Positions 2,582 to 40,099 of a stretch of 64,000 nucleotides of DNA are shown here, in pieces. The notes below the pieces were generated by a model, which saw nothing but the letters and a program-made list of their open reading frames with translations, was not told the DNA's origin and did no database searches. The stretch covers positions 1,364,001 to 1,428,000 of the forward strand of contig NZ_CP014223.1 of the NCBI RefSeq assembly GCF_001561955.1, in the 5' to 3' direction. The translations under genes were made by a program, and so were the position numbers. Source of the stretch: Anaerotignum propionicum DSM 1682. GTDB taxonomy: Bacteria > Bacillota > Clostridia > Lachnospirales > Anaerotignaceae. Each line of letters starts with the position of its first letter. Position 1 is the first letter of the stretch.

Positions 2582-2610
2582 TTGAAAGAAAGTGCAACAT
2601 AGTGTATAAT
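2582..2610 (+). promoter_or_regulatory. Sigma-A promoter of a counter-oriented small RNA
   Basis: TTGAAA (2582-2587), a 17-bp spacer, then TATAAT (2605-2610). It points right, against every neighbouring gene, and no credible coding frame follows before the terminator at 2652-2691. Confidence 0.75.
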
Positions 2611-2616
2611 ATTTAT

Positions 2617-2691
2617 GTCGTAACTGTCTTTTAGATAGTTGCTGCACTGGGAAGTGACGTGTATCTTTGATCGGAGAGCGTCACTTTTTTT
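2617..2691 (+). ncRNA. Candidate 75-nt hairpin RNA, antiparallel to flanking genes
   Basis: The predicted start is about 2617. Hairpin 1 pairs AACTGTC (2622-2628) with GATAGTT (2634-2640), one G-U pair included. Hairpin 2 pairs AAGTGACG (2652-2659) with CGTCACTT (2679-2686) and runs into seven T residues, a clear intrinsic terminator. The U-tract ends on the stop codon of the convergent ribbon-helix-helix gene (2690-2692), while the promoter backs onto the 91-aa gene. I do not recognise an Rfam family. It could be a plasmid-style counter-transcribed regulator of the element, or only an insulator. Confidence 0.6.
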
Positions 2692-2869
2692 ATTTGTTTT
2701 TAAGGTCATTTTCTAACTTCATAACTCCACGTCTAACAGCTTCGGCAGCAGACACTGCTTCTTGCTCCATATATTCATCAAGAATATTCTTTGAAGTGTC
2801 GTCTAATTTGACTGTTACTTTGTGACTTTTTGGGTTGTCAGTTTTAGGACCTCTCTTACCTTTTTCCAG
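2690..2869 (-). CDS. Small ribbon-helix-helix DNA-binding protein, non-ATG start
   Basis: 59 aa. The body HKVTVKLDDTSKNILDEY, followed by SAAEAVRRGVMKL, is a typical RHH (Arc/CopG-type) strand-helix-helix. No ATG, GTG or TTG is available at the proper place. CTG at 2867-2869 lies 7 nt after AGAGGGGG and gives MEKGKRGPKTDNPKS; ATT at 2870-2872 is the alternative. Such proteins bind operators or oriT DNA in mobilizable elements, so a relaxosome or copy-control role is plausible. It is transcribed with the TnpV and Mob genes upstream. The rare start codon may keep its level low. Confidence 0.65.
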   Translation of the reverse strand: MEKGKRGPKTDNPKSHKVTVKLDDTSKNILDEYMEQEAVSAAEAVRRGVMKLENDLKNK

Positions 2870-2937
2870 AATAGCACCCCCTCTAAGAAATAGGTCTGCC
2901 TTAATTATAGAATAGGGCAGACCTATTTGTCAATGAG

Positions 2938-3318
2938 TTAGATATAAATATTTTTTTTCATTATAAGTTCTTCAGCCATCATTTTGTAGTTATTCATTCT
3001 AGCAACCCAAGCCGTTTGATTGGTAGCTTTAAATTTCTCATCACATCCATTGAGTTTTGCCCAGTGAGCAACCATTTTATCAATCTGTGTTTGTGCTTGC
3101 TCGTTGATTTCAAGTAGATGCTTGTTGAGTTTCCCTGATAGATACAAACTCATATACAAGCTGTTTCTATGCTCTCTCAGATAGGCTTCACAAAGTAACC
3201 CATATTTGCCTACCCACACATCTTCTTCCTGTGGCAGAGCTAAATCGGGGTAATACATACTATCTTCAGCTAGGGTATAGTGTAATCCGTTTTTGTCGTC
3301 ATAAATATGCTTTTCCAT
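2938..3318 (-). CDS. tnpV: TnpV-like transposon-encoded protein
   Basis: 126 aa. The stretch GKYGLLCEAYLREHRNSLY, then LYLSGKLNKHLLEINEQAQ and WVARMNNYKMMAEELIM, matches my memory of the TnpV family first named in the clostridial Tn4451 mobilizable transposon. Function is not established; it is a marker of this element type. I start at ATG 3318 behind AGAGG rather than at 3333. Its start lies just before the 3' end of the relaxase gene (3323), so the two are probably translated from one message. Confidence 0.75.
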   Translation of the reverse strand: MEKHIYDDKNGLHYTLAEDSMYYPDLALPQEEDVWVGKYGLLCEAYLREHRNSLYMSLYLSGKLNKHLLEINEQAQTQIDKMVAHWAKLNGCDEKFKATNQTAWVARMNNYKMMAEELIMKKNIYI

Positions 3319-3322
3319 TATT

Positions 3323-4510
3323 TTACCTCTCATAATCTCTCTTTTTAGTTATTGAAGGTACTGGCTTTTGCTGATACTCTTGAATTAAAGCATCAACTTT
3401 GCTTTTACCTAACACTTTTTCAAGTTTCATATAGCTTTCCGCTTTTAGAGCATTTGTGTCATGTAAATTTGGTACCCGATTTGCTTTATCATACCAATAG
3501 TTTTTCTCTTTTAATAAAGTGTTATATTTCTGATTTAGATTGACTATTCTGACCACTAAGCCTTTAATGACTTCCTTTAGGGAATTTACCAGGGGCTGGG
3601 CCTTTTTTTCTTTATACGATTTTGCAGTAGCAAATCCTGTCACTTCAGGGAGCTGCCACTCTGTTTCTTCATAATAAGCATGAATATTCGTCTGAATATC
3701 TTTGTGTTGTTTCATAAGATTATATAACTTAGCTTCAATATGCTTTGCTTTATCTGATTTTTCCTCAATGACAGCATCCATTTTTGTAGATTTATCTTCC
3801 AAAGTATCAATCTTTTCTTCTAGCTGCATTATTTCTTCAGCACGCTTTTCTTTTTTGTAATCAAGAACAGATAAATGTTCTTTATTGGAGCCTATTTTCT
3901 CCCACTCGATATCATGTTCAAGCATAATTTCAGCTAGTTTTTCTTTCTCGGAATCTTGCCATTGGGTAAGCTCAGTACTACCACGAGTACCACCCTTAAA
4001 ACCTAACTTCTCCAATGCACCTTTCAGGGTGTTTTTCGTATCTAAACCACGTTTGTTACCATCTGTATATGGCACAAAATCAATATGTAAATGTGGAGTG
4101 GCTTCATCCATATGAAGGTGAGCAGAAAATACATATAGGGTAGGGTTTCTTTGTTGAAAGTCAGCCATGTATTTATGGAGGATTTCTTCAGCGATTTTTC
4201 CGTTTTCATCAGTAGCACTCATATCTTCAAAGTTACCCACTTGTACAACGATTTCATAGAATAACTTCTCTTGTTTTGAAGTGCGTATTTTCTCATAATA
4301 ATCTGGGATTTTTCTATCATTGCGTTTCTGTTTGGCATTGTAATTTTCAAGGGCAGTATCAAATAATTTGTGATACACTTCTTTTATATCTTCCTTAATA
4401 AAACAGGTGTTTAAATGGATACGAGTAGGGTCAATATTCTCAGCTTTAAAATCTCTAGAATTATGCCCAATAGAGCCTTTGCCTTTTGCAATACTGATTG
4501 TTCGCTTCAA
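3323..4510 (-). CDS. mob: MobV/Pre-family relaxase (plasmid recombination enzyme)
   Basis: About 395 aa. The N-terminal half carries the MobV features: GSIGHNSRDFKAENIDP (motif I region) and the metal-binding motif HLHMDEATPHLHIDF near residue 140. The C-terminal half is a long charged coiled coil (about 215-300) followed by a helical tail. These proteins nick oriT, bind the 5' DNA end and let a helper conjugation system move the element; TnpZ of Tn4451 belongs here. The start is a TTG: the one at 4510 has GGAGG 9 nt upstream, and one at 4516 is closer. No type IV secretion genes are visible, so the element would be mobilizable rather than self-transmissible. Confidence 0.88.
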   Translation of the reverse strand: MKRTISIAKGKGSIGHNSRDFKAENIDPTRIHLNTCFIKEDIKEVYHKLFDTALENYNAKQKRNDRKIPDYYEKIRTSKQEKLFYEIVVQVGNFEDMSATDENGKIAEEILHKYMADFQQRNPTLYVFSAHLHMDEATPHLHIDFVPYTDGNKRGLDTKNTLKGALEKLGFKGGTRGSTELTQWQDSEKEKLAEIMLEHDIEWEKIGSNKEHLSVLDYKKEKRAEEIMQLEEKIDTLEDKSTKMDAVIEEKSDKAKHIEAKLYNLMKQHKDIQTNIHAYYEETEWQLPEVTGFATAKSYKEKKAQPLVNSLKEVIKGLVVRIVNLNQKYNTLLKEKNYWYDKANRVPNLHDTNALKAESYMKLEKVLGKSKVDALIQEYQQKPVPSITKKRDYER

Positions 4511-4583
4511 ATGCAAATTCCTCCTTCTTAACTATTAATACAGGAGCGTGCCACGCTCCTGTATACTGCTGATAAAGAGAAAA

Positions 4584-4817
4584 TCACCACCGCCAATCTT
4601 TATGGTATCCCTTCAAATCTAGGTATTCAATTCTTGCTTTTTCCTGTTCTTCTTTTGTGGGTGCAGTCTTATATTTTGTGTATGTATTTCTGGCAACGAT
4701 GGCTTCGATTTTTTTATTAAGCTCAGTTTCAATTTCTTCCTGCCAAATTTCGTCACCGCCTAAATGGAATTTCACAAGCATTAGAAACAGGTCATAACTT
4801 ATCTGTACGTTTTTCAA
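4584..4817 (-). CDS. Small element-encoded protein of unknown function
   Basis: 77 aa, soluble, no Cys. The pattern VQISYDLFLMLVKFHL, then YTKYKTAPTKEEQEKARIEY and the terminal KDWRW, is one I remember next to relaxase genes in mobilizable elements of gut Firmicutes, sometimes mislabelled complexin-2. Start is TTG 4817 with AAAGGATGG upstream. It lies between the relaxase gene and the hairpin-rich oriT candidate, so a relaxosome role is possible but not shown. Confidence 0.55.
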   Translation of the reverse strand: MKNVQISYDLFLMLVKFHLGGDEIWQEEIETELNKKIEAIVARNTYTKYKTAPTKEEQEKARIEYLDLKGYHKDWRW

Positions 4818-4849
4818 TCTCTCAATCCATCCTTTTACAGTTTTAACTA

Positions 4850-5030: not shown

Positions 5031-5033
5031 CCT

Positions 5034-6107: not shown

Positions 6108-6437
6108 TTATTTTTGCTCATTTTGTAGTCCTTGCAGTGTTAATGTAATTAGGTTAATTGTTTCTAGCAATTCTGTATCTAATCCATCTATCAATCCATC
6201 AATACGGCTTAGTTCTACTAAGACGTTGCTTAGTTGGTCACGCAGAGCCTTATATACTCTTGGATTGCCCTGAACAACAATATCTCTTTCTGATATGCGG
6301 TTTATTAAATAATCTTGCTTGTTCAGTCCTGATAGTTTCACAGCAATTTCGAATTGCTCCCATTCTTCAGGCGATACTCTGAAAGCTACTGTTTTACTAC
6401 GAAAGCGATTTTTCTTATCAAGATTTTTTGCCGACAT
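6108..6437 (-). CDS. MobC-like relaxosome accessory protein
   Basis: 109 aa. The first part FRSKTVAFRVSPEEWEQFEI, then AVKLSGLNKQDYLINRI, is the ribbon-helix-helix arrangement of MobC/MbeC-type proteins that open oriT DNA for the relaxase; the rest is a coiled helix. Its ATG lies inside the last 20 bp of the integrase gene, with GGAGG upstream, so it is coupled to integrase translation. The overlap ties mobilization to the integration module. Confidence 0.7.
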   Translation of the reverse strand: MSAKNLDKKNRFRSKTVAFRVSPEEWEQFEIAVKLSGLNKQDYLINRISERDIVVQGNPRVYKALRDQLSNVLVELSRIDGLIDGLDTELLETINLITLTLQGLQNEQK

Positions 6438-7503
6438 TTTGTAATTCCTCCAATTTGTCTACCATCTCAATCTGCTTACTTGGGAATAGATGAGCATAGC
6501 GGTAAGTAATATCTATTGACTCATGACCAACTCTATCAGCTATAGCAACGGCACTAAAACCTAGGTTAATCAATAGACTTACATGAGAATGCCTGATAGA
6601 ATGCAAAGTTATCTTTTTTACTCCGGTTTCCCTGCAACCTCGTATCATTTCATTGGTTAGATAACTTTTATTTGTGGGGAAGAGCCTATCCTTTGGTTTA
6701 AGTTTGTACTGATGACGGATATACTCCTGTATTTCCTCACACAAGGTATCTGTAATTTTAATAATGCGGTTGCTTTTTGGTGTTTTAGGCTCCGTGATAA
6801 TATCTTTACCCTGTAACCTTTGATAGGATTTATTGATACTTACAGTCCCTTTTTCAAAATCAAAGTCTTTGGGTGTCAGTGCCAATAGTTCACCAATTCT
6901 TAAGCCTGTCCAATACATTAAGGAAAAAGCATAGTAGGACATAGGCTTGTCTCTCATGGCATCAATAAAAATTTCATATTCTTCTTGTGTCCAAAATTCA
7001 ATTTCTTTGGTTTTCTCACTACCCATATTGCCAACCTTAGCCGCAGGGTTGCTTTTGAGCTCATAGAATTTGACTGCATGATTGAATAGGGCAGAAAGTT
7101 GGTTATGTAGGGTCTTTCGATAAGTCATACTATACCCCTTGCCCTTATCATCACGATAGTTCATCATTGCATTTTGCCAAGCCATCACATCGGTGGCTTT
7201 GATTTCGTTCATCTTCTTATCATTGAAGTAGGGTAAAATCTTCTTTTCAATAATATGCTCTTTGGTTAGCCAGGTATTGAGTTTGAGCCTTGCTTTCATA
7301 TCATTTTTGTACAGTTCATAAAACGAGGAAAATGGCATATCCAAGTCCTGTGTTTGCTGTTGTAGAAATACTCGTTCCCACTCTAGTGCTTCCTTTTTGG
7401 TGGTAAAACCACGTTTCATCTTTTTGATACGTTTTCCTTGCCAATCAGTGTAATAAAACGCAGTAAACCAAGTATTGTAGCGTTCATCTTTATACGCTGG
7501 CAT
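6418..7503 (-). CDS. int: Tyrosine recombinase (integrase)
   Basis: 361 aa, full length for the Tn916/phage-type family. An Arm-binding type N-terminus (residues 1-50, WFTAFYYTDWQGKRIKKMKR) is followed by a SAM-like core-binding domain and the catalytic domain. Catalytic residues visible: Arg in TGLRIGELLAL, the HSIRHSH box (H-x2-R), GHES and the nucleophile Tyr in DITYRYAHLF. It integrates and, with the excisionase, excises the element. It starts at ATG 7503 right after the excisionase stop, behind AAGGAGG. The adjacent guaA 3' end is the likely target, although one more gene lies between. Confidence 0.92.
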   Translation of the reverse strand: MPAYKDERYNTWFTAFYYTDWQGKRIKKMKRGFTTKKEALEWERVFLQQQTQDLDMPFSSFYELYKNDMKARLKLNTWLTKEHIIEKKILPYFNDKKMNEIKATDVMAWQNAMMNYRDDKGKGYSMTYRKTLHNQLSALFNHAVKFYELKSNPAAKVGNMGSEKTKEIEFWTQEEYEIFIDAMRDKPMSYYAFSLMYWTGLRIGELLALTPKDFDFEKGTVSINKSYQRLQGKDIITEPKTPKSNRIIKITDTLCEEIQEYIRHQYKLKPKDRLFPTNKSYLTNEMIRGCRETGVKKITLHSIRHSHVSLLINLGFSAVAIADRVGHESIDITYRYAHLFPSKQIEMVDKLEELQNVGKKS

Positions 7504-14675: not shown

Positions 14676-16724
14676 TTGCCAAATTATGATAATTTTTCTT
14701 GGTTAGTAAATATTCCTTATTTTTGTTCCCAAGCAATTTTCAGCGATGAAACTATAAATTATAGAATACCGCCGGAGCCTTCCAGGTTTGATACAGTTAC
14801 AATTACTTTAAGGACGGGCAGAAATCTTCAGCTGCGGCCTTTTTTATGTAGGGAAGCAGAGCGCCTTCCCATGAAAAAAATGTGGTCAAGCTTTATATTT
14901 GAATTTTATCAAGTAGAATTACCCCCAACTGACGAGAAGGAATGTTATTATTTTTGTATCGAGGGGGAGGGATTCACCCTTTATTATACAAAATTTGGTG
15001 TGTTTGACAGCTATCAGGGGGAGGGATGGTTCGAAATTCTGAGGGACTATCATACACCCCAATGGGCAAGGGGAGCGGTAATGTATCAAATATTCCCCGA
15101 TCGTTTTTTTGATGGAGATGAAAAAAATGATGTTCTGAGCAATGAATATATGTATTTGGGTAAACCGGTGAAAAAAATTGTAGACTGGAACAAAAATCTG
15201 GAATCAGAGGATATTCGGAATTTTTATGGCGGTGACTTGCAAGGCATTTTGACGAAGATTAACTATCTGGAAAGTTTGGGCATAGATGCAATATATTTAA
15301 ACCCAATCTTTCTTTCCCCCAGTAATCATAAATACGATATTCAGGATTATGAGCATATTGATCCTCATCTTGGTGTGATTGAGGTGGATGAAGGAGCATT
15401 GGTTTTTGGTTCGGAAAAGAATCAAGAAGCAACCAGATATATCACTCGTATTACTAATGAAACAAATCTGCAAAAAAGTGATTTGCTTTTTGCTTCCTTG
15501 GTTGCAGAGGCGCATAAAAGAGGAATGAAAGTAATCCTTGACGGTGTCTTTAATCATTGCGGTGCATTCCATAAATGGATGGATCGAGAGGGGATTTATA
15601 AGGATAAATTAAAAGGTGCCTTTCAAGATAAAAACAGTCCATTTCATCCTTATTTTATATGGAATCAGGATGGAACTACCTATGAGGGGTGGTGGGGATA
15701 TGAAAACCATCCTAAGCTAAATGTTGAGGGCTGTTTGGAGTTAAGAAATAAAATTATGGAGATTGGTGCAAAGTGGGTTTCGTCTCCTTTTTGTGCAGAC
15801 GGATGGCGGCTGGATGTGGCGGCAGATTTAGGAACCACAGAGGAATTTAACCATACTTTCTGGCGGGAATTTCGGGAAACCGTGAAAAAAGCCAATCCAA
15901 ATGCTTTAATTTTAGCAGAGCATTACGGAGAGGCAAAAGCTTGGTTACTTGGCGATCAATGGGATAGCATTATGAATTATGACGCCTTTATGGAGCCGTT
16001 GACTTGGTTTCTTACAGGGGTATCAAAGCACAGTACAGACGCCAGAGATGATTTGTACAATAATGCTGATGTATTTTGGGGCAGTATGATTTATCAAATG
16101 TCAAAGCTGCCTATTCAGGCCTTAACTACAGCAATGAATGAGCTTTCTAATCATGACCATTCTCGTTTTTTAACAAGAACAAACCGCCAATTGGGTAGAT
16201 TGGAGCATGATGGCGCAGAAAGAGCCTCGGAGGGTATTCAACTTTCTGTGATGCGGGAGGCAGTCTTGTTCCAAATGACTTGGCTTGGTGCACCCACCAT
16301 CTATTATGGGGATGAAGCTGGAGTTGCGGGATGGACTGATCCTGATAATCGCAGACCTTATCCTTGGGGCAGAGAAAATAACGAATTAATTGCATTCCAC
16401 AAAGCATGCATTTTTTTGCGAAAAGAAAATGAAGCTTTACGATTGGGTTCCTTAAAGCAATTATTTGGAGAATATGGTATCATAGGATATGGAAGGTTTA
16501 CGGAACAAAACCACTGTGTAGTTGTATTGAATAACAGCGATCATTTTAAAGAAATTTTTGTGCCTGTATGGCAGATTGGCGTTAGAGAAAAAGGCAGAAT
16601 GAAACGCTTGATTTTGACGGATGAGAGGGGATATCATTTGGAAAGCGTGGACTTTAGTGTGGAAAACGGGCATATTTGTTTGCCATTGGAGCCTAAGAGT
16701 GGAATTCTTTTAAAGGAAGTGTAA
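14676..16724 (+). CDS. GH13 alpha-glycosidase, neopullulanase/cyclomaltodextrinase type
   Basis: 682 aa, cytoplasmic (no signal peptide). An N-terminal beta domain (about 1-120) precedes the TIM barrel that starts near GAVMYQIFPDRFFDGD. The four conserved regions are present: DGVFNHCG (I), DGWRLDVA with the nucleophile Asp (II), ILAEHYG with the acid/base Glu (III) and ELSNHDHSRFL (IV). The C-terminal beta domain follows. It should hydrolyse maltodextrins, pullulan or cyclodextrins. Start is TTG 14676, just after AAAGGTGGTG; no in-frame ATG fits. The next gene overlaps its stop codon (TAATG). Confidence 0.88.
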   Translation: MPNYDNFSWLVNIPYFCSQAIFSDETINYRIPPEPSRFDTVTITLRTGRNLQLRPFLCREAERLPMKKMWSSFIFEFYQVELPPTDEKECYYFCIEGEGFTLYYTKFGVFDSYQGEGWFEILRDYHTPQWARGAVMYQIFPDRFFDGDEKNDVLSNEYMYLGKPVKKIVDWNKNLESEDIRNFYGGDLQGILTKINYLESLGIDAIYLNPIFLSPSNHKYDIQDYEHIDPHLGVIEVDEGALVFGSEKNQEATRYITRITNETNLQKSDLLFASLVAEAHKRGMKVILDGVFNHCGAFHKWMDREGIYKDKLKGAFQDKNSPFHPYFIWNQDGTTYEGWWGYENHPKLNVEGCLELRNKIMEIGAKWVSSPFCADGWRLDVAADLGTTEEFNHTFWREFRETVKKANPNALILAEHYGEAKAWLLGDQWDSIMNYDAFMEPLTWFLTGVSKHSTDARDDLYNNADVFWGSMIYQMSKLPIQALTTAMNELSNHDHSRFLTRTNRQLGRLEHDGAERASEGIQLSVMREAVLFQMTWLGAPTIYYGDEAGVAGWTDPDNRRPYPWGRENNELIAFHKACIFLRKENEALRLGSLKQLFGEYGIIGYGRFTEQNHCVVVLNNSDHFKEIFVPVWQIGVREKGRMKRLILTDERGYHLESVDFSVENGHICLPLEPKSGILLKEV

Positions 16725-32416: not shown

Positions 32417-33895
32417 CTATTTAAAAACGATCTCAACATTATTCTTAGTTAAAATTACCTTCTCTATAAAGCTTCTTGCCACCTTATTTTTCTCTTCAAT
32501 GGATAAATTCTCCCAGTCGAAATCGCTAAAATTGGCAATCTCATTTTGTTTTTGTGGGATATGAGTAAAACTTTTCATGATATCCTGTTTCTCTTGGTGT
32601 AAGGCTTCAATTCTTGAATTAATATATTCAGCGGTGACGCTACTTGCATTTTCAAGAGAGAGAATTAAATTATTTATTTTCTCTTCGATAAGCATAAGTT
32701 TTTTATTCTGGTCTTTTTGATTGTGATTTTCGGTATTTTCATTCCGCAGTCTTATATTTTCAGCTTCGTTTACAAGCTGGTTTTCTACAAAGGCCTCTAC
32801 ATCGTAAACACGGTGTGTCTGTATTGCATCGCAACTTTTATGGAGGTAGCGGCCAGAACATGCAAAGTAGGGGATACGTCCTTCTTTAACGGCACCAAAG
32901 CGAACAGAAAAGGAATATCCGCAGTAACCACACTTTACAAGCCCTGTCAGCCATGAATATTTGCCCTTGTAGGTGTTTTTAATCTGACGGTTGGATGCTA
33001 GTTTAGTTTGACAAGCTAAGAAGGTTTGACTGTCTATAATGCCATCGTGGGTACCAATGGCCAAGAGGTGCTCTGACACGTCTTTATATTTTCGCTCATT
33101 TCCATCTCTTTTACCTACCAGGATACAACCATGCACACCGTCAAACTCTTCAACATCGTTTGCCATAATGGCTCCTTTGGATTTATAAAAGTTGTAAATA
33201 GCGATATCGGCTTTTACATATGCAGGATTCTTTAAAATAGAGGATAATTTAGCACTGTCAAAATTAACACCACCAGCAGAGAGTATACCCTCAGAGACAA
33301 GAAATCTTTGCACGTCTGCCAAAGAAGTATATTGTTGCCTGTACAACTCAAATATCTTGACCACATTGGCTAATTGTTCATTAGGTTGATAAGATGTTGC
33401 CTTCTTGCCATCAATAACCGTACGCACCAAATTAAAGCCGTATGCGGCGGGTCCGCCTCCCCATGCACCTTTCCTCACTCGTGCATAGTAATTATCCTTA
33501 ACACGTTCGGCAATCGTTTCACGTTCCAACTGGGCAAAGACAATAACGATATACAGCATTGCACGTCCCATTGGCGTTGAAGTATCGAATTTCTCCGTAG
33601 CAGACACGAAGGAAATACCTTTTTCCTCCAAAGAATTAATGAAGTCACCAAAGTCAACGATGGAGCGGCTAACTCTATCGAGACGATAAACAACTACTTT
33701 TGAAACTTCTTCGATGTCCATATCCTTCATCATTTGTTCAAAAGCAGGGCGGTTCGTATTTTTTCCGCTGTAGCCCTTATCTTCATAAATCTTGAACTCT
33801 TCATTGAATACTTCACGTTTTGCATATTCAATTTGCGTTTCAATGGAGATACTATCTTTTTTATCAATGGATTGTCTCGCATATATATATATCAT
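32417..33895 (-). CDS. Large serine recombinase (prophage integrase)
   Basis: 492 aa. The resolvase domain has IYARQSIDKKDSISIETQ with the nucleophile Ser, YRLDRVSRSIVDF and FAQLERETIAERV. The recombinase domain follows (about 150-260), then a zinc ribbon (CGYCGYSF with the later CSGR and CDA) and a coiled coil (about 400-450) typical of large serine integrases. It joins attP and attB and, with a directionality factor, reverses this. GAAAGGTG precedes ATG 33895. It lies at the left prophage end, next to the split deacetylase gene. Confidence 0.92.
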   Translation of the reverse strand: MIYIYARQSIDKKDSISIETQIEYAKREVFNEEFKIYEDKGYSGKNTNRPAFEQMMKDMDIEEVSKVVVYRLDRVSRSIVDFGDFINSLEEKGISFVSATEKFDTSTPMGRAMLYIVIVFAQLERETIAERVKDNYYARVRKGAWGGGPAAYGFNLVRTVIDGKKATSYQPNEQLANVVKIFELYRQQYTSLADVQRFLVSEGILSAGGVNFDSAKLSSILKNPAYVKADIAIYNFYKSKGAIMANDVEEFDGVHGCILVGKRDGNERKYKDVSEHLLAIGTHDGIIDSQTFLACQTKLASNRQIKNTYKGKYSWLTGLVKCGYCGYSFSVRFGAVKEGRIPYFACSGRYLHKSCDAIQTHRVYDVEAFVENQLVNEAENIRLRNENTENHNQKDQNKKLMLIEEKINNLILSLENASSVTAEYINSRIEALHQEKQDIMKSFTHIPQKQNEIANFSDFDWENLSIEEKNKVARSFIEKVILTKNNVEIVFK

Positions 33896-34010: not shown

Positions 34011-35195
34011 TCAATATACACACTTTTTACAAGGTGTTAATCCTCTTGAAAGCGCTTCCTCTAATGTAGATTCTGTATAGTGGCCACCATTACATGAGTC
34101 GTCGTAGTGATATCTTTTACCGGTTGGAGTTACATAAATGGTTCGACCATTACTTTTTTGAGTATTAGTAACACGAACTGTCTCACTTGCAGCTTTTTGT
34201 TCTGCAGCAAGTCTTTCAGCTTCAGCCTTTTGTTCAGCGGCAATTCTTTCTTCCTCGGCTTTTTTTTCTGCCACAAGTCTCTCTTCTTCAGCTTTTTTCT
34301 CAGCAGCAATTCTTTCTTCCTCGGCTTTTTTTTCAGCGGCAAGGCGTTCGGCTTCCTGCTTTTCCTTATCTACAATTGTGACAAGTAATTCATTACTTTT
34401 AATATCCGATGTTTCAGCCAGGATAGATAAATCCCCCTCATTGCTGAATGTTTTCAGCTCAAGTTCTCCGTTTTCCAGCTTGGAGATCTCAGCTAAAGAA
34501 TCGTCAGTTACCTCAAAACGGATTTCGGATATATCTGCATTTTCAGGAGTATAGTGCAACTGGACAAATTGATTTTCATTTATATCCATGGTGTCATTAC
34601 CAACTGAAAGTGCAATTGTTTCAACCGGTATGGAAGGGGATGCAAAGGTATGTACAAACAAACCAATTGTTGAAAATATAATTACACCGATTGTAATGAA
34701 AGTATATCTTTTACTATTTGGGTGATTCAATAAATCTTTTTTTACATGTAGCAAATGGAAAATACTTTGAATAAAGACGGCAGGAAAAAATAACCGTACG
34801 TTTATCAATGTGGCAATCAAAGTAATGGCAACATATATCATCCAACGCTTGAACTTTTTAGGCGGAAGATTGCCTCCACCTGAAAAATTTGAATATATCT
34901 CTGTAGGTGTAGCGTTGTTTTCATTTGAATATGGCGAATAACTATAATTATTCTCTGAAAGAGCAGATCCTCCTTCTTTTGCCTTTTTCTCTTTCTTTTT
35001 AGAAGGCTTTAAAGAAGTGGTTGTTACATGAGAAATACCGGTACCAGGGATGCTAAAAGATTTTGTAACTTTCCCTTTCGAATTGAGGGAAACTCTAGCA
35101 CCTTTTGTGCCCACACTCATTCCTACACCACGTTTACTTAAATTAAGTTTTATGCCTGGAGCAATTTTTATACTCTTTCTAAACCTAAAACCCAT
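34011..35195 (-). CDS. DUF4236-type membrane protein with long coiled linker
   Basis: 394 aa. Residues 1-55 are a DUF4236-type domain (MGFRFRKSIKIAPGIKLNLS, then VGTKGARVS). Two or three hydrophobic segments lie at about 118-180. A beta-rich, Ig-like region (ETIALSVGNDTMDINENQFV) follows, then a tandem coiled repeat of the form AAEKKAEEER (about 283-335), and a C-terminal domain GKRYHYDDSCNGGHY with CKKC, a likely metal site also found in nuclease-type proteins. AAGGGGG precedes the ATG. Function unknown. It is carried in the lysogeny arm. Confidence 0.7.
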   Translation of the reverse strand: MGFRFRKSIKIAPGIKLNLSKRGVGMSVGTKGARVSLNSKGKVTKSFSIPGTGISHVTTTSLKPSKKKEKKAKEGGSALSENNYSYSPYSNENNATPTEIYSNFSGGGNLPPKKFKRWMIYVAITLIATLINVRLFFPAVFIQSIFHLLHVKKDLLNHPNSKRYTFITIGVIIFSTIGLFVHTFASPSIPVETIALSVGNDTMDINENQFVQLHYTPENADISEIRFEVTDDSLAEISKLENGELELKTFSNEGDLSILAETSDIKSNELLVTIVDKEKQEAERLAAEKKAEEERIAAEKKAEEERLVAEKKAEEERIAAEQKAEAERLAAEQKAASETVRVTNTQKSNGRTIYVTPTGKRYHYDDSCNGGHYTESTLEEALSRGLTPCKKCVY

Positions 35196-35211
35196 ACAAA
35201 TTCCCCCTTAA

Positions 35212-35240
35212 TTGACAAAATATTCTATAAAGTTTATAAT
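35212..35240 (+). promoter_or_regulatory. Sigma-A promoter of sRNA copy A
   Basis: TTGACA (35212-35217), 17-bp spacer, TATAAT (35235-35240): a perfect consensus, pointing right, away from the DUF4236-type gene. Confidence 0.8.
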
Positions 35241-35246
35241 GTATTA

Positions 35247-35311
35247 AGGGTTTGTAGCATGACAAATCTGTTTTTTACCCTCACAGTATTTGCGGTACTG
35301 TGGGGATTTTT
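35247..35311 (+). ncRNA. Counter-oriented hairpin RNA, copy A
   Basis: About 65 nt. Hairpin 1 pairs TTTGT with ACAAA around AGCATG. Hairpin 2 pairs CCCTCACAGTA (35278-35288) with TACTGTGGGG (35296-35305), one bulge, then five T residues. It is a diverged duplicate of the unit at 36594-36661. The same stretch also reads as a frame from ATG 35259 behind AAGGG (see findings), so a small coding transcript is the alternative. Confidence 0.6.
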
Positions 35312-35372
35312 AGTTTCGGAAAAATATCTGATAGTTCCTTTAAGGCTTGCATATGAGAAGTGCAAACTCTAA
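35259..35372 (+). CDS. Possible 37-aa hydrophobic peptide over sRNA copy A
   Basis: ATG 35259 lies 8 nt after AAGGG and gives MTNLFFTLTVFAVLWGFL, then a charged tail ending at TAA 35370-35372. One membrane helix with a basic end resembles type I toxin peptides. Against it: the terminator hairpin sits inside the frame, and copy B has lost the frame through single-base length changes. I hold this as an alternative reading of the RNA. Confidence 0.25.
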   Translation: MTNLFFTLTVFAVLWGFLVSEKYLIVPLRLAYEKCKL

Positions 35373-35377
35373 TAAAA
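35311..35377 (-). pseudogene. Degenerate copy of the hepT 3' end
   Basis: The stretch is closely similar to 36661-36730, the 3' end of the hepT gene. Read leftward it still gives CTSHMQALKELSD before losing the frame. With sRNA copy A it forms a duplicated segment of about 130 bp that flanks the exonuclease gene. Confidence 0.65.
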
Positions 35378-36532
35378 TCATTCTAAACAATTTATCAAGT
35401 CTTTTTCCTTCAATATTAAAATAGTGTGACCTTTTTCTTGCATTTCAAGAGCTTTTGCGACCTTACCACCATAATTCCCATATTTCCAATTATCACTCCC
35501 AGCACCGCCAACAATAAGATAATCCGCCTTTTTAGTAAGGTTGTCTTTGCAGGAACCACCTTTTGAAATAATCATTTCTGTGATATCACTTTTAGATCCT
35601 GAGTCGAAGTCTCCCGTTAATACAAATAATTTCTCTTCAAATATAATCGAGCATTCCGTGCAAGATGTTTCTATTGGGTTTACGAATTGTGATAATAGGC
35701 AAAGCATCTCATCAGCTTCAGAATCGGTTAAAATACCATCCTCCAGTATTAGAGAGCAAAGTGCGGAAATTTTATCGAATGGATAGTTTCCAGCTAACGA
35801 CTGGTGCTCTTGAATCCAATCCTTAATGAATATTATTTCATCAATCTCAATTAAATTGTCACTGATTATTTGTTCAGCTAATTCCTTTAATTCTTGCATA
35901 GAAATAGTATTATTTGAGTATTTAATTCTATTTTTGGAAGAAATAAAAAAGTTTGTGCAGTTAAGTTCATAAAAATTTTTAATTGTAAAGTTTCTATGAG
36001 CTGCAAGTAATATAAAGCTTTCATGTCTATGAGTTTTAAGTATATTGATAATAATGTTTGCCACGGCTAATGCATCGCTAAGTGCATTGTGGTGGTTGTC
36101 GATATCAACGCCATAGAGATCTGCTGCTGTCTTTAGTGTATTGTTTTGTAAATTGCCAGGAGAGCACAGATGCGTAATGTGGATATTGTCTATGTAATGA
36201 AAGTTATGAATATCAATTGAATATTCATTAAAGCAACATTTTAATACAGACATATCAAATTGAGCATTATGGGCAATTACAAAATGTGTATTAGCGAAAT
36301 ATTCTTTTAATTGCTCCCAGACTTCAAAAAAGTTACTCTCAGTTTTCACCATTTCAAAGGTTATTCCATGAATGTCGACATTCTTCATTAAGAATTCAGC
36401 TGTAGGAGGCTTTATTAAGAAATATTCAGTTTTTACAATTTCCTGATTTTTAACCGCAACTATTCCTATGGAGCAGGCACTATTCAAATTATTATTTGCA
36501 GTTTCAAAGTCAATCGCTATAAAGTCGTACAT
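35378..36532 (-). CDS. DEDDh exonuclease with C-terminal BRCT domain
   Basis: 384 aa. DnaQ-like exonuclease domain at about 1-165 with motif I DFIAIDFETAN, motif II HNAQFDMSVL and motif III NHHNALSDALAVANI (H-x4-D). A helical middle region with an acidic tellurite-resistance-like stretch follows (KIYS to CLLSQF region, about 215-290). The C-terminal BRCT domain (about 305-384) has FVLTGDFDSGSKSDITEMI and ADYLIVGG. Similar fusions occur as DNA-polymerase-III-epsilon-like repair or defence proteins. I start at ATG 36532, 6 nt after AAGGGGTG. It lies between two copies of a duplicated sRNA/hepT-end segment, which suggests it arrived as a cassette. Confidence 0.82.
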   Translation of the reverse strand: MYDFIAIDFETANNNLNSACSIGIVAVKNQEIVKTEYFLIKPPTAEFLMKNVDIHGITFEMVKTESNFFEVWEQLKEYFANTHFVIAHNAQFDMSVLKCCFNEYSIDIHNFHYIDNIHITHLCSPGNLQNNTLKTAADLYGVDIDNHHNALSDALAVANIIINILKTHRHESFILLAAHRNFTIKNFYELNCTNFFISSKNRIKYSNNTISMQELKELAEQIISDNLIEIDEIIFIKDWIQEHQSLAGNYPFDKISALCSLILEDGILTDSEADEMLCLLSQFVNPIETSCTECSIIFEEKLFVLTGDFDSGSKSDITEMIISKGGSCKDNLTKKADYLIVGGAGSDNWKYGNYGGKVAKALEMQEKGHTILILKEKDLINCLE

Positions 36533-36558
36533 AAACAACACCCCTTAAAATTCAAAAT

Positions 36559-36614
36559 TTGACAATATAATACATATTACTTATAATAATATTAAGGGGT
36601 TTGTGGCATGACAA
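36559..36614. promoter_or_regulatory. Overlapping divergent promoters, exonuclease gene and sRNA copy B
   Basis: Rightward: TTGACA (36559-36564), 17 bp, TATAAT (36582-36587). Leftward: TTGTCA (36609-36614), 17 bp, TATTAT (36586-36591). The two -10 boxes share two bases, so polymerase cannot use both at once. The leftward -35 lies inside the sRNA sequence. Confidence 0.7.
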
Positions 36615-36661
36615 ATCTGTTTTTACCCTCACAGTATTTGCGGTACTGTGAGGGATTTTTT
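36594..36661 (+). ncRNA. Counter-oriented hairpin RNA, copy B
   Basis: About 68 nt. Hairpin 1 pairs TTTGT with ACAAA around GGCATG. Hairpin 2 is a perfect 11-bp stem, CCCTCACAGTA (36626-36636) with TACTGTGAGGG (36644-36654), then a T-run that ends on the hepT stop codon (36660-36662). It reads against both neighbours. AAGGGG followed 8 nt later by ATG is kept, but no in-frame stop comes before the terminator. No known RNA family is recognised. Confidence 0.65.
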
Positions 36662-37052
36662 AGTTTTCCGAAAAATATTCTGATAGTTCCTTTAAAGCTT
36701 GCATATGTGAAGTACATATTCTAACAAAGATTTCATCTGCTGTTTTTTCATCGTAAACATGTGAGGTTAGGTTACGGTCATTTAATATCTGAATCCAAGT
36801 ACGTTCATCATTGATGATTTTATATGAATATGCTTCACGCATGACGGTTTTTGGGCTATTCAGATCAAGAAAGCCTTGTTCTATAAGATACTCTCTCGCT
36901 GTTTTCCATGCAAGTTCCACTGAGAACTCAAATCTTTGGATCGCGCCATCACGAACTGTAGTGCTTTTATTCAGATTATACTCCTCTAACGCTTCCTGCA
37001 AACGAGATACTGATTTTTCAAAGTTTTCAGCTTTCTTTTGAAAATTACTCAT
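36660..37052 (-). CDS. hepT: HepT-like HEPN toxin (type VII toxin-antitoxin)
   Basis: 130 aa, helical. The R-x4-H-x-Y motif of HEPN RNases is present as RNLTSHVY near residue 90. The family is also known as HI0074-type nucleotidyltransferase-substrate-binding proteins. In type VII systems HepT is a tRNA- or mRNA-cleaving toxin silenced by AMPylation of the Tyr by MntA. Start ATG 37052 overlaps the mntA stop (ATGAGTAA), so the antitoxin gene comes first and the two are coupled. Its 3' end has been copied to 35311-35377. Confidence 0.8.
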   Translation of the reverse strand: MSNFQKKAENFEKSVSRLQEALEEYNLNKSTTVRDGAIQRFEFSVELAWKTAREYLIEQGFLDLNSPKTVMREAYSYKIINDERTWIQILNDRNLTSHVYDEKTADEIFVRICTSHMQALKELSEYFSEN

Positions 37053-37320
37053 AGAGCAGCACACCATCCTTTTCAATATTTTTAATTAGTTCCTGGTCTG
37101 TAGTCTCACTTATAAATACCAGATCAAATTTCAAAAGAGTAGGAAGATCATCAACATCAGACCAAAACCGAGATTGGTTACAATCCTTCATACCGTAAAT
37201 AGCCAAATCAATGTCACTTCGTGAATGATTATCCCCACGGGCACGAGAGCCAAAGAGAACAATTTTTTGTGCTTGATATTTTTTGCCTAGGGCTTTTATT
37301 TCTTGGTAAATTGTTTCCAT
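37045..37320 (-). CDS. mntA: MntA-like minimal nucleotidyltransferase antitoxin
   Basis: 91 aa. The GS-x10-D-x-D active site is visible as GSRARGDNHSRSDIDLAI. The length fits MNT-fold antitoxins that add AMP to HepT. I start at ATG 37320, 8 nt after AAAGGA; ATG 37329 overlaps that site. It is the first gene of the pair and may share a promoter with the repressor gene upstream, from which it is separated by about 75 bp. In a prophage this pair probably acts in stabilisation or in defence against other phages. Confidence 0.82.
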   Translation of the reverse strand: METIYQEIKALGKKYQAQKIVLFGSRARGDNHSRSDIDLAIYGMKDCNQSRFWSDVDDLPTLLKFDLVFISETTDQELIKNIEKDGVLLYE

Positions 37321-37394
37321 AGGGAGCATCCTTTCTTATTTCATAGTAATACCATCTTTCATGTCTTATGAATATTGAAATAACTTTTTCGCTT

Positions 37395-37898
37395 TTAGGC
37401 GTCTTTTGCGGAGATGGAAGCTATAGACGTTATGCCCTTTTTCTCGGCCAGCATTTCTTGCTTTATCAATTCTAATTCTTTTTCATCCTCAGCGGTAAGC
37501 TTCGTCACTGAGGCGGGGAAAAGCTCTTCTGCTATTTCTTCGTTCCTATTTGTAAGATTACTGCGTTCATATTCCTTTTCTAAAACTAAATTAACCATAT
37601 CTTTGCCAGATTCATTTAAGCATCGATATTTAGAAATTAGTTTTATTTCGTTGTGGTCTAAATCAAAATTACATACTCTACCAAAATTAATATCTGTTAT
37701 TTCGTCCTTCATTAAATAATCTAGAGTGGTATCAAAATATTCAGCTAATTTTTTGATAGTAGATAACTTAACGTTTTGATAACCTTTTTTATAAAATCCA
37801 TCAATGGTTGTATATGGTATTCCACTTTCTCTTGATAAAACATTTTTGTTTATGTCATTTTTGTTCATTAGGAAATCAAGTTTTTCTAGGAAATTCAT
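37395..37898 (-). CDS. Prophage repressor, XRE family
   Basis: 167 aa. The HTH covers residues about 8-66 (NDINKNVLSRESGIPYTTID, TIKKLAEYFDTTLDYLM). The C-terminal part is acidic and helical, with no S24 peptidase motif, so induction would not be by simple RecA-stimulated self-cleavage. It is divergent from the Cro-like gene across three operators. Its promoter, read leftward, is TTGACT (37945-37950), 17 bp, TACTAT (37922-37927). Confidence 0.82.
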   Translation of the reverse strand: MNFLEKLDFLMNKNDINKNVLSRESGIPYTTIDGFYKKGYQNVKLSTIKKLAEYFDTTLDYLMKDEITDINFGRVCNFDLDHNEIKLISKYRCLNESGKDMVNLVLEKEYERSNLTNRNEEIAEELFPASVTKLTAEDEKELELIKQEMLAEKKGITSIASISAKDA

Positions 37899-37921
37899 AA
37901 TACTTCCCTCCTTACTTTTCC

Positions 37922-38035: not shown

Positions 38036-38050
38036 AAAGGAGGGGAGAGT

Positions 38051-38269: not shown

Positions 38270-38282
38270 GGAGGGGGGAGCA

Positions 38283-38453: not shown

Positions 38454-38718
38454 TAAGCTCGGGTTTGCCATCATAATGGTCATACTCAATATTCTTTACA
38501 GTATATGTATTGAGTTTATCTTGGGTTGTAATTGTATTTCCAACTTGAATATTGGGTTTGTCTTCAACTAAAAATTCTATATGTTTGCCTGATTCATCGG
38601 TATTTTCTAAGCCTTTAAATACACCAATTTGCTCTTGCAAATTAAAAATTTCATAAGTGAGCAAATCGTTAGAAAAATCTTCAAAAAACAGTTTGGCAGG
38701 GACTGGTAATATACCCAT
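38437..38718 (-). CDS. Hypothetical protein, leftward inside the early region
   Basis: 93 aa, soluble, beta-rich; contains VEDKPNIQVGNTITTQDKLN and YTVKNIEYDHYDGKPELI. I choose ATG 38718, 8 nt after GGAGG, over 38724. It is the only leftward gene among the early genes and its end overlaps the small gene at 38283, so it may be expressed in the lysogen. Function unknown. Confidence 0.55.
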   Translation of the reverse strand: MGILPVPAKLFFEDFSNDLLTYEIFNLQEQIGVFKGLENTDESGKHIEFLVEDKPNIQVGNTITTQDKLNTYTVKNIEYDHYDGKPELIKAYY

Positions 38719-38850
38719 TGGCATTACCTCCTTTCTTAATTACTCGGCATTGCAGTGCTTGTACAGAAAGGATAGCACGATGTGACAAAATATTCCACAA
38801 TAATTACAAGCTACTTAAGGTATGTGAGATTAGAAAAAGAACCTATTTTT

Positions 38851-38882
38851 AGAATAGGACAAATATGCAGAATAGGACAAAT
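38851..38882. repeat. Two 14-bp direct repeats upstream of an early gene
   Basis: AGAATAGGACAAAT occurs at 38851-38864 and 38869-38882, 18 bp apart. It lies 37 bp before the gene at 38919 and may be a tandem protein-binding site. Confidence 0.5.
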
Positions 38883-38918
38883 TCTATAAAGCATAGCTTT
38901 TACTAGGGGGTGTTTAAG

Positions 38919-39098
38919 ATGCCAAGAGAGGCTAAGAAAACTGAATACACTGTAACGGTACGCCATAAGGAAAAGACCAAAGAGGAAGCGGAGATTCACG
39001 AAAGAAATTGTGCTCGTGTACTTATTGAAGCAAAGATGAAAGCGGCGGAAGCTATAAAAGCCAAAGCGGCACAATCTATTAATGTAGTTAGTAAATAG
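38919..39098 (+). CDS. Small basic early phage protein
   Basis: 59 aa, MPREAKKTEYTVTVRHKEKT then a Lys/Ala-rich helix. It follows AGGGGGTG by 6 nt. No domain recognised; the charge suggests nucleic-acid binding, which is only a guess. Confidence 0.5.
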   Translation: MPREAKKTEYTVTVRHKEKTKEEAEIHERNCARVLIEAKMKAAEAIKAKAAQSINVVSK

Positions 39099-39145
39099 GG
39101 GCGCAAGCCCTTTGATAAGGACAAGCTTTAAGAAAGGATGAATTT

Positions 39146-39433
39146 ATGAAATCAACGGGGATTACACGCAAAGTAGATGATTTGGGCAGGGTGGTTCTGC
39201 CCATAGAGCTTCGGAGGAATTTAGGTATTGGCATTGGTGACACCCTAGAGATATTTACAGACAAAGAAATGATTGTGTTGAGACGGTATAATGCCGTGGA
39301 TGATTTGCTTACCATGGCAGTTCGGCTAAAAGATAGAGTCGTTGTTGAAGATTGTGGCGAAATGAAGCCTGTTTTATTGGACAAGCTTTCTGAGGTTGAA
39401 AAATTGCTTATGAGTGAAGTGGACAAGTATTAG
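39146..39433 (+). CDS. AbrB/SpoVT-type transcriptional regulator
   Basis: 95 aa. The swapped-hairpin domain at the N-terminus is clear: STGITRKVDDLGRVVLPIEL, then LGIGIGDTLEIF and VLRRY. The C-terminal half is a helical dimerization tail. AAGAAAGGATG lies upstream. Phage copies of AbrB-like proteins can alter host transition-state or sporulation control; what this one binds is unknown. Confidence 0.82.
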   Translation: MKSTGITRKVDDLGRVVLPIELRRNLGIGIGDTLEIFTDKEMIVLRRYNAVDDLLTMAVRLKDRVVVEDCGEMKPVLLDKLSEVEKLLMSEVDKY

Positions 39434-39459
39434 TATTACATAAAAATAAGGAGGTAGCC

Positions 39460-39732
39460 ATGGACCCAAGGGAAATAGAGGAGGTTGAGCAAATATTTGA
39501 CTTAAAAACAAGGAAAGAAAAGCGAGGCAAGCGGAAGAATAGGAAACAGTTTTTTTCAGAACTTTTTAAGTGTGTTTTTTTGATGGTTGTTGCAATGCTT
39601 TCAGCGGCGATTATTGTGCCGAAGTCGGAAGCGGCACCCGAAAAGGCTCTGATTATTTATGAGTTCTGCGCTGTCTTTGCAATCATTATTTTAGTTAGTT
39701 TTTGGTTGGACAAGCCAAGGAGAAAGAAGTGA
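39460..39732 (+). CDS. Small two-helix membrane protein
   Basis: 90 aa. An acidic, then very basic N-terminus (TRKEKRGKRKNRKQ) is followed by two hydrophobic helices (CVFLMVVAMLSAAIIV and YEFCAVFAIIILVSFW). AAGGAGG precedes the ATG. Function unknown; it lies between the AbrB-type gene and a counter-oriented RNA. Confidence 0.55.
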   Translation: MDPREIEEVEQIFDLKTRKEKRGKRKNRKQFFSELFKCVFLMVVAMLSAAIIVPKSEAAPEKALIIYEFCAVFAIIILVSFWLDKPRRKK

Positions 39733-39757
39733 GAAACCAATGAGGAATTTATGCAAT

Positions 39758-39789
39758 AAAAAAGGCACTGGGAAACCCAGCACCACCAC
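39758..39789 (-). ncRNA. Very short counter-oriented hairpin RNA
   Basis: Promoter TTGTCC (39819-39824), 17 bp, TATAAT (39796-39801), all leftward. The RNA, about 32 nt, is essentially one hairpin: GGUGCUGGG-UUU-CCCAGUGCC plus six U. Two of the nine pairs are G-U on this strand and would be C-A mismatches on the other, so the leftward RNA is the functional one. It ends about 25 bp short of the stop codon of the gene at 39460. Confidence 0.6.
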
Positions 39790-39795
39790 AAAATT

Positions 39796-39824
39796 ATTAT
39801 AGCATAGATTCTATTTTGGGACAA
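39796..39824 (-). promoter_or_regulatory. Sigma-A promoter of the 32-nt hairpin RNA
   Basis: TTGTCC, 17-bp spacer, TATAAT, pointing left against the early operon. Confidence 0.65.
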
Positions 39825-39857
39825 GCATATTCTCTATATAGATGCTAGGAGGTTATT

Positions 39858-39992
39858 ATGAGTAAGTTTGATATATGCCCTTTTTGTGGCGCAACGTTAG
39901 ACCATGGGGAAACCTGTGATTGTAGATGTAAATCTATTAAGGAAGAAACGCAAGAAATCTGTGTTTGCCAAAATGAAGAGAAAATGGAATAG
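39858..39992 (+). CDS. 44-aa zinc-ribbon-like protein
   Basis: MSKFDICPFCGATLDHGETC followed by DCRCK and a later CVC: a CPFCG knuckle with further Cys suggests a small zinc site. GGAGG lies 5 nt before ATG 39858. It sits between two counter-oriented RNA units. Function unknown. Confidence 0.55.
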   Translation: MSKFDICPFCGATLDHGETCDCRCKSIKEETQEICVCQNEEKME

Positions 39993-39996
39993 ATGC

Positions 39997-40064
39997 AAAA
40001 AAAGTGCCCCTCTCTTGCGGTAACAAGAGGGGGGCAAGGTTTTAGATAAAACCCAAGATATAGT
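39997..40064 (-). ncRNA. Counter-oriented hairpin RNA of about 68 nt
   Basis: Promoter TTGTAA (40094-40099), 17 bp, TATAAT (40071-40076), leftward. The terminator pairs GCCCCCCTCTTG with CAAGAGAGGGGC (11 of 12 pairs) and is followed by AC and seven T residues. It ends 5 bp from the stop codon of the zinc-ribbon gene (39990-39992), the same geometry as the other units. Confidence 0.6.
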
Positions 40065-40070
40065 ACTTAT

Positions 40071-40099
40071 ATTATACAACAGAGTACATTGTTTTACAA
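40071..40099 (-). promoter_or_regulatory. Sigma-A promoter of the 68-nt hairpin RNA
   Basis: TTGTAA, 17-bp spacer, TATAAT, pointing left. The gap from here to the gene at 40231 shows no other clear feature. Confidence 0.65.

Follow-up and report, generated by a model that had tools for sequence, protein, structure and literature searches.

Predicted counter-transcribed RNA genes in the leaders of replication and cargo genes of Anaerotignum propionicum mobile elements

That antisense RNAs govern plasmid copy number is textbook knowledge, and phages offer a related case: in P22, the short stretch separating arc from ant gives rise to the sar RNA, which overlies the ribosome-binding site of ant. 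The units described here, five promoter-hairpin-terminator modules lying backwards in intergenic gaps of a 64,000-nucleotide stretch of the Anaerotignum propionicum DSM 1682 genome, therefore have a phage precedent in their geometry. This stretch, referred to below as the window, spans positions 1364001-1428000 of its source contig in a genome of 3.12 Mb. Several published systems bear on the units. The closest published anatomy is that of RNAII of plasmid pMV158, whose gene lies between copG and repB and is read against both (PMC4485353). The RNAI molecules of pT181 and pSK41 are 83-87 nt long and complementary to the rep leader, and for pSK41 the pairing of RNAI has been proposed to make the region round the rep start fold into a stem-loop (PMC5703833). 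In P22, sar measures 68/69 nt, and sas acts on the superinfection-exclusion gene sieB (PMC7067206, PMC12197685). ArrA of Bacillus subtilis is an antisense RNA over the dnaA 5' untranslated region that lowers both dnaA mRNA and protein (PMC12112137), and RNA-based prophage replicons are known from mycobacteriophages (PMC7157519).

We think that each of the five units is probably a gene for a short, cis-encoded counter-transcribed RNA (ctRNA) that sits in the leader of the following gene and regulates it, within operons of mobile elements. Sequence patterns support the presence of discrete antisense RNA genes, and position together with recurrence before genes for replication initiation proteins (Rep) supports the regulatory role. 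That the RNAs are made, that they pair in the cell and in which direction they act we infer from such patterns, and the predicted sign is not uniform across leaders. In the proposed mechanism, a near-consensus sigma-A-type promoter on the downstream-gene side of the gap would fire backward, with transcription stopping at an intrinsic terminator near the stop codon of the upstream gene. This course would make the RNA complementary to mRNA that reads through from the first gene into the second, and pairing would alter the fold of the leader and hence translation (or transcription) of the downstream gene. All five units were found where the original prediction had placed them (Table 1), with spacers of 17 bp throughout and matches to TTGACA/TATAAT of 11, 12, 12, 10 and 10 of 12 bases for units 1-5, and they do occupy two different mobile elements, unit 1 a Mob_Pre element and units 2-5 a prophage. 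A proposed terminator position of 0 to 26 bp from the upstream stop fails for unit 2, where the distance to the stop at 35378 is 66 bp because a 63-bp remnant of the end of a HEPN gene intervenes. The five predicted RNAs fold better than shuffled sequences (z -3.4 to -5.7, matched by no more than 1 of 200 shuffles). The idea that geometry is kept while sequence differs stands insofar as the design recurs with unrelated sequence, whereas units 2/3 and unit 5 each belong to a conserved family. Among the three functions originally offered (antisense regulators, promoter decoys, or insulators between acquired gene units), antisense regulation is the best; a boundary between acquired genes does not suit unit 5, which is tied to the Rep gene.

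The units are far more frequent than expected by chance. A scan blind to their positions, with genes called by a simple open reading frame (ORF) rule, accepted promoters with at least 10 of 12 consensus bases and a spacer of 16-18 bp, combined with a hairpin of -8 kcal/mol or better and a T tract within 110 nt. It returned seven units in the window, and the five that are antisense to both neighbours are exactly those predicted, in line with the claim that all five read against their flanking genes; a stricter, bulge-free scan returned three of the five and one other. The comparison with shuffled sequence that had been suggested as a check came out clearly: 60 block-wise dinucleotide shuffles of the window gave a mean of 0.20 and a maximum of 1 unit of any context, against seven, and in 2000 shuffles of each individual gap a unit arose 0, 2, 1, 0 and 2 times (gaps 1-5). 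On the chromosome, none of 9 units in 440 kb was antisense to both neighbours, nor was any of 11 units in 46 stretches not screened for mobile DNA (920 kb, 186 codirectional gaps of 80-300 nt; L008, L078 and L079, which flank the window, were excluded). Fourteen mobile-DNA stretches (320 kb, 82 such gaps) held 17 units, 13 of them double-antisense, in a biased set: several of these stretches had been picked for holding relatives of units 2/3 or 4/5, and because of this preselection the five of seven in the window itself is the fairer figure. By this search rule, double-antisense units were seen solely in those stretches of the sample that hold mobile DNA; the scan overlooks some relatives that other searches had found, such as those in L147 and L153. 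One of the 13 double-antisense units, at 15738-15850 of locus L145 in another prophage of the same genome (~2515738), adjoins an ORF of 28 aa for a holin-like toxin, which runs on the opposite strand. This looks like a type I toxin-antitoxin pair and serves as a positive control of the scan.

The strongest test of the units is their recurrence ahead of diverged Rep genes. Unit 5 precedes a Rep gene (phrog_3584 replication initiation protein, E 1.2e-61; phrog_3419 rolling circle initiation, 7e-11) with relatives in four genome records (three Anaerotignum and one metagenome-assembled Clostridia genome) and homologs in 26 of 146 genomes of the order. From 30 Rep loci, 28 leaders were scanned (L205 and L208 were dropped), and 13 hold an antisense unit, compared with 0.03 expected from shuffles and with none of the 28 on the sense strand. 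The count is 9 of 24 once the four closest relatives are removed, and the most distant leader with a unit (L196) belongs to a protein of 33% identity. Elsewhere in the same loci, 8 units occur in 89 kb on either strand. Among 26 named phages with a Rep match, five were examined at slightly looser thresholds and three hold a unit (Terrisporobacter TPDSL_ph2, Latilactobacillus TMW 1.1381 P1 and TMW 1.46 P2); at the same thresholds the leaders of Butyrivibrio Arawn and Faecalibacterium Toutatis hold none. Seven unit 5 sequences (one each from the window, from another prophage of its genome and from a viral contig, plus four from three congeners) share an invariant -10 element (6/6 columns) and 4/6 columns of the -35 element, 10/12 in total, compared with 5/17 in the spacer.

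Folding of the Rep leader suggests how unit 5 might act. The unit comprises two hairpins and lies ~165 nt before the Rep start, and arm 1 of the leader shares CCAAGATATAG with that start, copying 11 of its bases by eye. When the antisense RNA is absent, arm 1 would pair with arm 2 and Rep would be made; when present, the RNA would take arm 1, arm 2 would close the Rep start region, and Rep would drop as copies rise. The duplex of arm 2 with the Rep start (-26.3 kcal/mol) is equalled by 1 of 2000 shuffles, that of arm 1 with arm 2 by 67 of 2000. On blocking the antisense-covered part of the window leader, arm 2 leaves arm 1 (pairing 0.74 to 0.00) for the Rep start (0.09 to 0.81), and the same pairing with the start rises in relatives L036 (0.00 to 0.97), L037 (0.29 to 0.83), L034 (0.41 to 0.89) and L035 (0.73 to 0.98). 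Accessibility of the Rep Shine-Dalgarno in the window shifts from 0.43 to 0.08, more than that of the start codon. The drop in access to the start was matched by 3 of 100 shuffles for the window, 10 for L036, 0 for L037, 20 for L034 and 41 for L033 (of the unit 5 relatives, L035 and L112 were left out of this test), and outside this group by 6 for unit 1, 8 for unit 4, 0 for L136 and 3 for L137. Among ten diverged leaders, the loss of start access is clearest in L210 (2 of 100 shuffles) and L196 (3), and weaker in L199 (8) and L189 (11); since folding predicts a start-closing switch for just some of them, the mode of action may differ among them. A long-range pairing of AGGTTTTAGA (~40031) with TCTAAAACCT (~40131) was considered as a pT181-type arm pair and dropped, as arm changes in relatives are by eye uncompensated. 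Motifs resembling the nick-site-like one in Table 1 occur in 11 of 30 Rep leaders against 1.3 expected (background 0.043 per leader), with a pattern set after viewing the leaders. In L033, L034, L035 and L037 the unit 5 terminator is present twice, flanking an extra gene of 185-192 aa (no Pfam family in the L033 copy); the window and L036 lack this gene and have a single terminator copy.

The likeness to pMV158 RNAII lies in a short RNA from the gap of two co-transcribed genes, an intrinsic terminator and a target just before the rep start (PMC4485353). Unit 1 follows a ribbon-helix-helix (RHH)-like ORF in a Mob_Pre-bearing element, and unit 5 precedes a rolling-circle-type Rep. This RHH-like ORF may be a partner of the CopG RHH type for unit 1; it matches phrog_876 (transcriptional repressor, E 1.9e-10) and, below cut-off, Pfam DUF6290 (E 0.007), and has no ATG, GTG or TTG start; the partner of unit 3 is a HEPN gene. 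The setting differs, a plasmid there versus tailed prophages and a mobilizable element here, and so do the distance and fold of unit 5, and most targets here are not rep genes. By sequence pattern, a promoter and an intrinsic terminator of its own opposite a rep leader, as expected of a ctRNA, are found for unit 5 and for the 13 of 28 Rep leaders counted above. A downstream replication initiator is found for unit 5 and not for unit 2 (DUF4236) or unit 3 (exonuclease), and the target of unit 1 belongs to no informative family in this respect. The predicted closing of the Rep start by unit 5 resembles the antisense-induced structure proposed for pSK41. By folding, a switch of the pT181/pSK41 kind is predicted in five of seven close Rep leaders (window, L034, L035, L036, L037) and in 2 to 4 of the 10 diverged ones; unlike in pT181 and pSK41, we recognised by eye no clear sense-strand intrinsic attenuator before Rep. 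The Rfam ctRNA_pT181 model (RF00242) gave unit 1 a sub-threshold score (20.9 of 56 bits, E 1.6), and permissive Rfam searches yielded chance-level matches only, including ctRNA_pT181 and RatA over this unit. P22 sar/sas, lambda OOP and BTP1 STnc6030 are likewise discrete phage-borne antisense RNAs acting on phage genes, but they are single enterobacterial cases, whereas the units recur with differing sequences across cargo, integrase and Rep leaders of Firmicute prophages. ArrA shares the position over a replication-initiator leader in a Firmicute, and differs in being chromosomal, longer and driven by a promoter that DnaA represses. We recognised no published report of these units, with subscription literature covered incompletely; ctRNA anatomy before diverged Rep genes in tailed prophages and before lysogeny cargo genes would open the limits on prophage replication and the silencing and release of cargo genes to direct test.

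Units 2 and 3 represent a second group, here called RNA family A. Unit 3 DNA matches three more sites in its own genome, namely unit 2 and two others that each lie beside an ImmA/IrrE gene and an integrase. The covariance-model search that had been proposed did find the family in other genomes of the order: model R1 matched 14 sites, spread over 8 of 58 genomes of the family, and model R2 matched 17, spread over 12 of 392 genomes of the order; the four weakest R2 matches (L097-L100) are doubtful or share geometry only, with L098 and L099 being without clear cargo context. In an alignment of 13 members (A4, without L052 and four R1 matches that were weaker or partial), the terminator ends ~5 nt or less from the upstream stop in eight (U3, L042, L043, L044, L051, L055, L049, L054). 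The upstream gene is ImmA/IrrE-like in the two other own-genome copies (PF06114) and, by eye, in L042, L044 and L054, a HEPN gene in the window (and in L051 by eye), and a CI-like repressor in L049 (by eye). Downstream lies a cargo gene, in many cases a lipoprotein judging by its N-terminus, and the family often sits between the stop of a lysogeny gene and the start of a cargo gene. Among six close members the -35 and -10 elements are invariant in 12/12 columns, the spacer in 5/17. The terminator stem is paired in 97.6% of cells, 4 of its 13 pairs show changes on both sides, and across the 13 members, which are related so that cells are non-independent, it shows 40 G-U against 3 A-C cells on the antisense strand; this asymmetry points to the antisense transcript as the one that folds. 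Small ORFs beginning MTNL on the antisense RNAs of units 2/3 were by eye judged not coding because their reading frame is not the same in units 2 and 3 and L043 lacks the ATG.

An inverted repeat links the Shine-Dalgarno of the cargo gene to the first bases of the family A antisense RNA, and in L047, L048 and L049 its arms differ yet still pair. In a gapless test of 12 leaders with 40 shuffles each, three stood out: U3, which was equalled by 2 shuffles, and L047 and L048, equalled by 1 each. For units 2/3 the antisense RNA would free, not hide, the Shine-Dalgarno. A first impression of such opening on antisense binding, from tests of 11 of the 13 members, was lost under a wider access measure with shuffles; the alternative of a protein operator round the antisense promoter was considered as well, and the repeat is kept only as a possible Shine-Dalgarno pairing in family A. 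Similar gaps exist outside the family: at seven of 30 ImmA loci in 56 genomes a codirectional gene follows after 80-150 nt, and three of these gaps hold a unit, namely an own-genome family A copy and L136 and L137, both from one other bacterial family and without sequence likeness to family A (L132, with a unit 68 nt after the ImmA stop and no next gene recognised, is not counted). The ImmA-integrase gaps of L136 and L137 contain long inverted repeats round the start of the backward promoter, whose arms differ between the two loci and still pair. Searches of phages and plasmids returned no match to the L136 gap, and just a 67-base piece of its integrase matches four Butyrivibrio phages.

Unit 4 is the weakest of the five cases. 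Two G-U pairs of its stem exist on the minus strand only. A 45-nt block over the terminator, which forms the first 45 nt of a tiny ORF, is identical in five of six prophages found by similarity and has one change in L035; two viral contigs retrieved by an exact pattern inside the block also hold it. The tiny ORF has a good ribosome-binding site in several relatives.

A number of observations weigh against reading the units as regulatory ctRNA genes. Rfam yields nothing at gathering score in the window. No unit is detectable in 15 of the 28 Rep leaders, and for the scan of these leaders several starts were set by hand and thresholds fixed after a first look. Among the seven close Rep leaders, L033 and L112 place arm 2 on the start even when no antisense RNA is present, the start codon itself barely shifts on blocking (0.56 to 0.46 unpaired in the window, 0.34 to 0.40 in L034), and the terminator stem of unit 5 forms more pairs on the sense strand. 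Six diverged leaders (L186, L187, L188, L190, L191, L201) show no loss of start access, with 51 or more of 100 shuffles as good. In family A the promoter fades with divergence, L045-L049 and L054 lacking TATAAT 16-18 bp from a good -35; burial of the Shine-Dalgarno exceeds shuffles at the 2% level or better in just 3 of 11 leaders; and the wider access measure gives no consistent shift under antisense cover. Finally, with a tiny ORF running through the stem and a next gene that differs in L036 and L106, the conserved unit 4 block may belong to the upstream gene or to the 20-aa ORF rather than to a downstream target.

The rival that fares best, though we consider it rather unlikely, is that the units are transcriptional insulators, in which the backward promoter blocks polymerase arriving from the lysogeny or early operon, the terminator merely shortens the backward transcript, the RNA is inert and the next gene has its own promoter; in pure form it could apply to units 2-4. 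Near-consensus backward promoters and terminators ending close to the upstream stop would suit such a role, and the G-U asymmetry is expected from a terminator alone. Read-through leaders of family A bury the cargo Shine-Dalgarno (at most 0.20 free) in 9 of 11 cases, which parallels T4 genes in which only transcripts started at upstream promoters form a sequestering hairpin (PMC2988022). Moreover, a sense promoter-like site overlaps unit 3 (36614-36586, TTGTCA-17-TATTAT, 10/12), and weaker ones (9/12) overlap unit 2. On the other side, inspection by eye of the diverged family A members revealed no good sense promoter, and units in Rep leaders recur ~90-235 nt before the (hand-set) start with a structured, start-pairing leader in between. 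A role as boundary sequences of cargo genes (morons), with the units as recombination joints for gene gain and loss and expression secondary, seems improbable to us. It draws on the copies of the HEPN gene end that, together with units 2 and 3, flank the exonuclease gene, which, as the 63-bp remnant shows, sits between two copies of the same joint, on the duplicated unit 5 terminators round the extra gene of four relatives, and on the gene after unit 4, which is a different one in L036 and L106. Recombination joints, however, have no need for promoter hexamers that are kept while spacers drift, and among the R1 and R2 matches of family A the two units of the window are the only close neighbours. 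Still less probable are trans-acting phage small RNAs with targets elsewhere and incidental leader complementarity: discrete RNAs with their own promoter and terminator would be consistent with them, but the sequence changes while the units stay between the same kinds of gene pair. Antitoxin RNAs opposite hidden small hydrophobic toxins are the least plausible explanation, for while type I pairs are known in Clostridia and C. difficile prophages and one appears in the sister prophage (L145), no small hydrophobic ORF was seen by eye opposite units 1-5, where ORFs below 60 aa were not systematically listed in gaps, and the 20-aa ORF at unit 4 is polar.

Coordinates of the units and their surroundings are collected in Table 1. 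In the prophage of units 2-5, structural genes lie by eye beyond the Rep gene. Unit 1 is in a separate element, its T tract overlapping the stop codon of the RHH-like ORF; its predicted target matches phrog_28204 (unknown function, E 1e-4) and no Pfam family at E 0.001, and a search of viral contigs with the target protein confirmed none. In 60 related genomes unit 1 was found in its own genome and as one 31-base match (E 9e-4). DNA searches gave no match of the unit 1 region in a plasmid collection, where the remaining units were not searched, and none of the unit 4/5 region in named phages. A TIR-domain gene and a Fic-domain gene, both possible defence genes, adjoin the unit 1 element at 291-1811.

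Table 1. Features of the five units, their predicted targets and neighbouring genes (window positions, except for the last row, which refers to locus L145)
Feature	Position	Strand	Details
Unit 1 antisense promoter	2582..2610	+	TTGAAA-17-TATAAT, 11/12 consensus bases
Unit 1 predicted antisense RNA	2617..2691	+	two hairpins and T tract; fold z -4.8; start predicted ~7 nt after -10
RHH-like ORF, sense-direction upstream of unit 1	2690..2872	-	60 aa; start ATT or CTG
Gene with leader covered by unit 1, predicted target	2271..2546	-	91 aa; start by eye
Mob_Pre relaxase gene, unit 1 element	3323-4516		
Recombinase-like gene, unit 1 element	6418-7503		by eye
Serine recombinase gene, prophage of units 2-5	32417-33895		
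Unit 2 antisense promoter	35212..35240	+	TTGACA-17-TATAAT, 12/12
Unit 2 predicted antisense RNA and terminator	35247..35311	+	start predicted; R1 105.7 bits, model-building member
DUF4236 cargo gene after unit 2, predicted target	34011..35195	-	PF14020 E 5e-23
HEPN gene 3'-end remnant repeat beside unit 2	35314..35376		63 bp, 83% identical to 36666-36728
Unit 3 antisense promoter	36559..36587	+	TTGACA-17-TATAAT, 12/12
Unit 3 predicted antisense RNA	36594..36661	+	two hairpins and terminator; start predicted; fold z -5.7; R1 112.7 bits, model-building member
CCCCTTAA, complement of cargo Shine-Dalgarno region	36541..36548		inverted repeat with TTAAGGGG at 36592-36599
Exonuclease-BRCT cargo gene after unit 3, predicted target	35378..36541	-	PF00929 E 5e-17, PF00533 E 1e-6; likely ATG at 36532
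HEPN gene (NTase substrate-binding, HI0074/HepT-like), last before unit 3	36660..37076	-	PF08780 E 1e-36, TIGR01987 E 3e-32
Cro/CI-type regulator gene, prophage of units 2-5	37395-37898		
Unit 4 antisense promoter	39796..39824	-	TTGTCC-17-TATAAT, TG before -10
Unit 4 predicted antisense RNA	39758..39790	-	one hairpin and T tract; start predicted
Tiny ORF through unit 4 hairpin/terminator	39740..39802	+	MRNLCNKKGTGKPSTTTKLL, 20 aa, polar
Unit 5 antisense promoter	40071..40099	-	TTGTAA-17-TATAAT
Unit 5 predicted antisense RNA and terminator	39997..40066	-	start predicted
Rep leader arm 1	40052..40063	+	CCCAAGATATAG; covered by antisense RNA 5' end
Rep leader arm 2	40100..40116	+	pairs arm 1 or Rep start (40225-40242)
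Nick-site-like motif	40176..40193	+	CTCGATAACAAGATTAAC, after G+C hairpin (region 40140-40200); possible rolling-circle origin
Rep gene (replication initiation protein), predicted unit 5 target	40231..40959	+	PF23343 REP_ORF2-G2P E 2.4e-16
Holin-like toxin ORF, L145	15852-15938	-	28 aa; PF16935 E 4e-11

Going beyond the ctRNA reading of the individual units, we tentatively raise a broader possibility, namely that Clostridia-like temperate phages use counter-transcribed RNAs as a standard part. One class would set the dose of rolling-circle-type Rep and with it the copy number of the induced prophage. Another would gate lysogeny cargo, with the antisense RNA as an activator that takes the anti-Shine-Dalgarno arm of the read-through mRNA, its 5' end acting as an anti-anti-Shine-Dalgarno.

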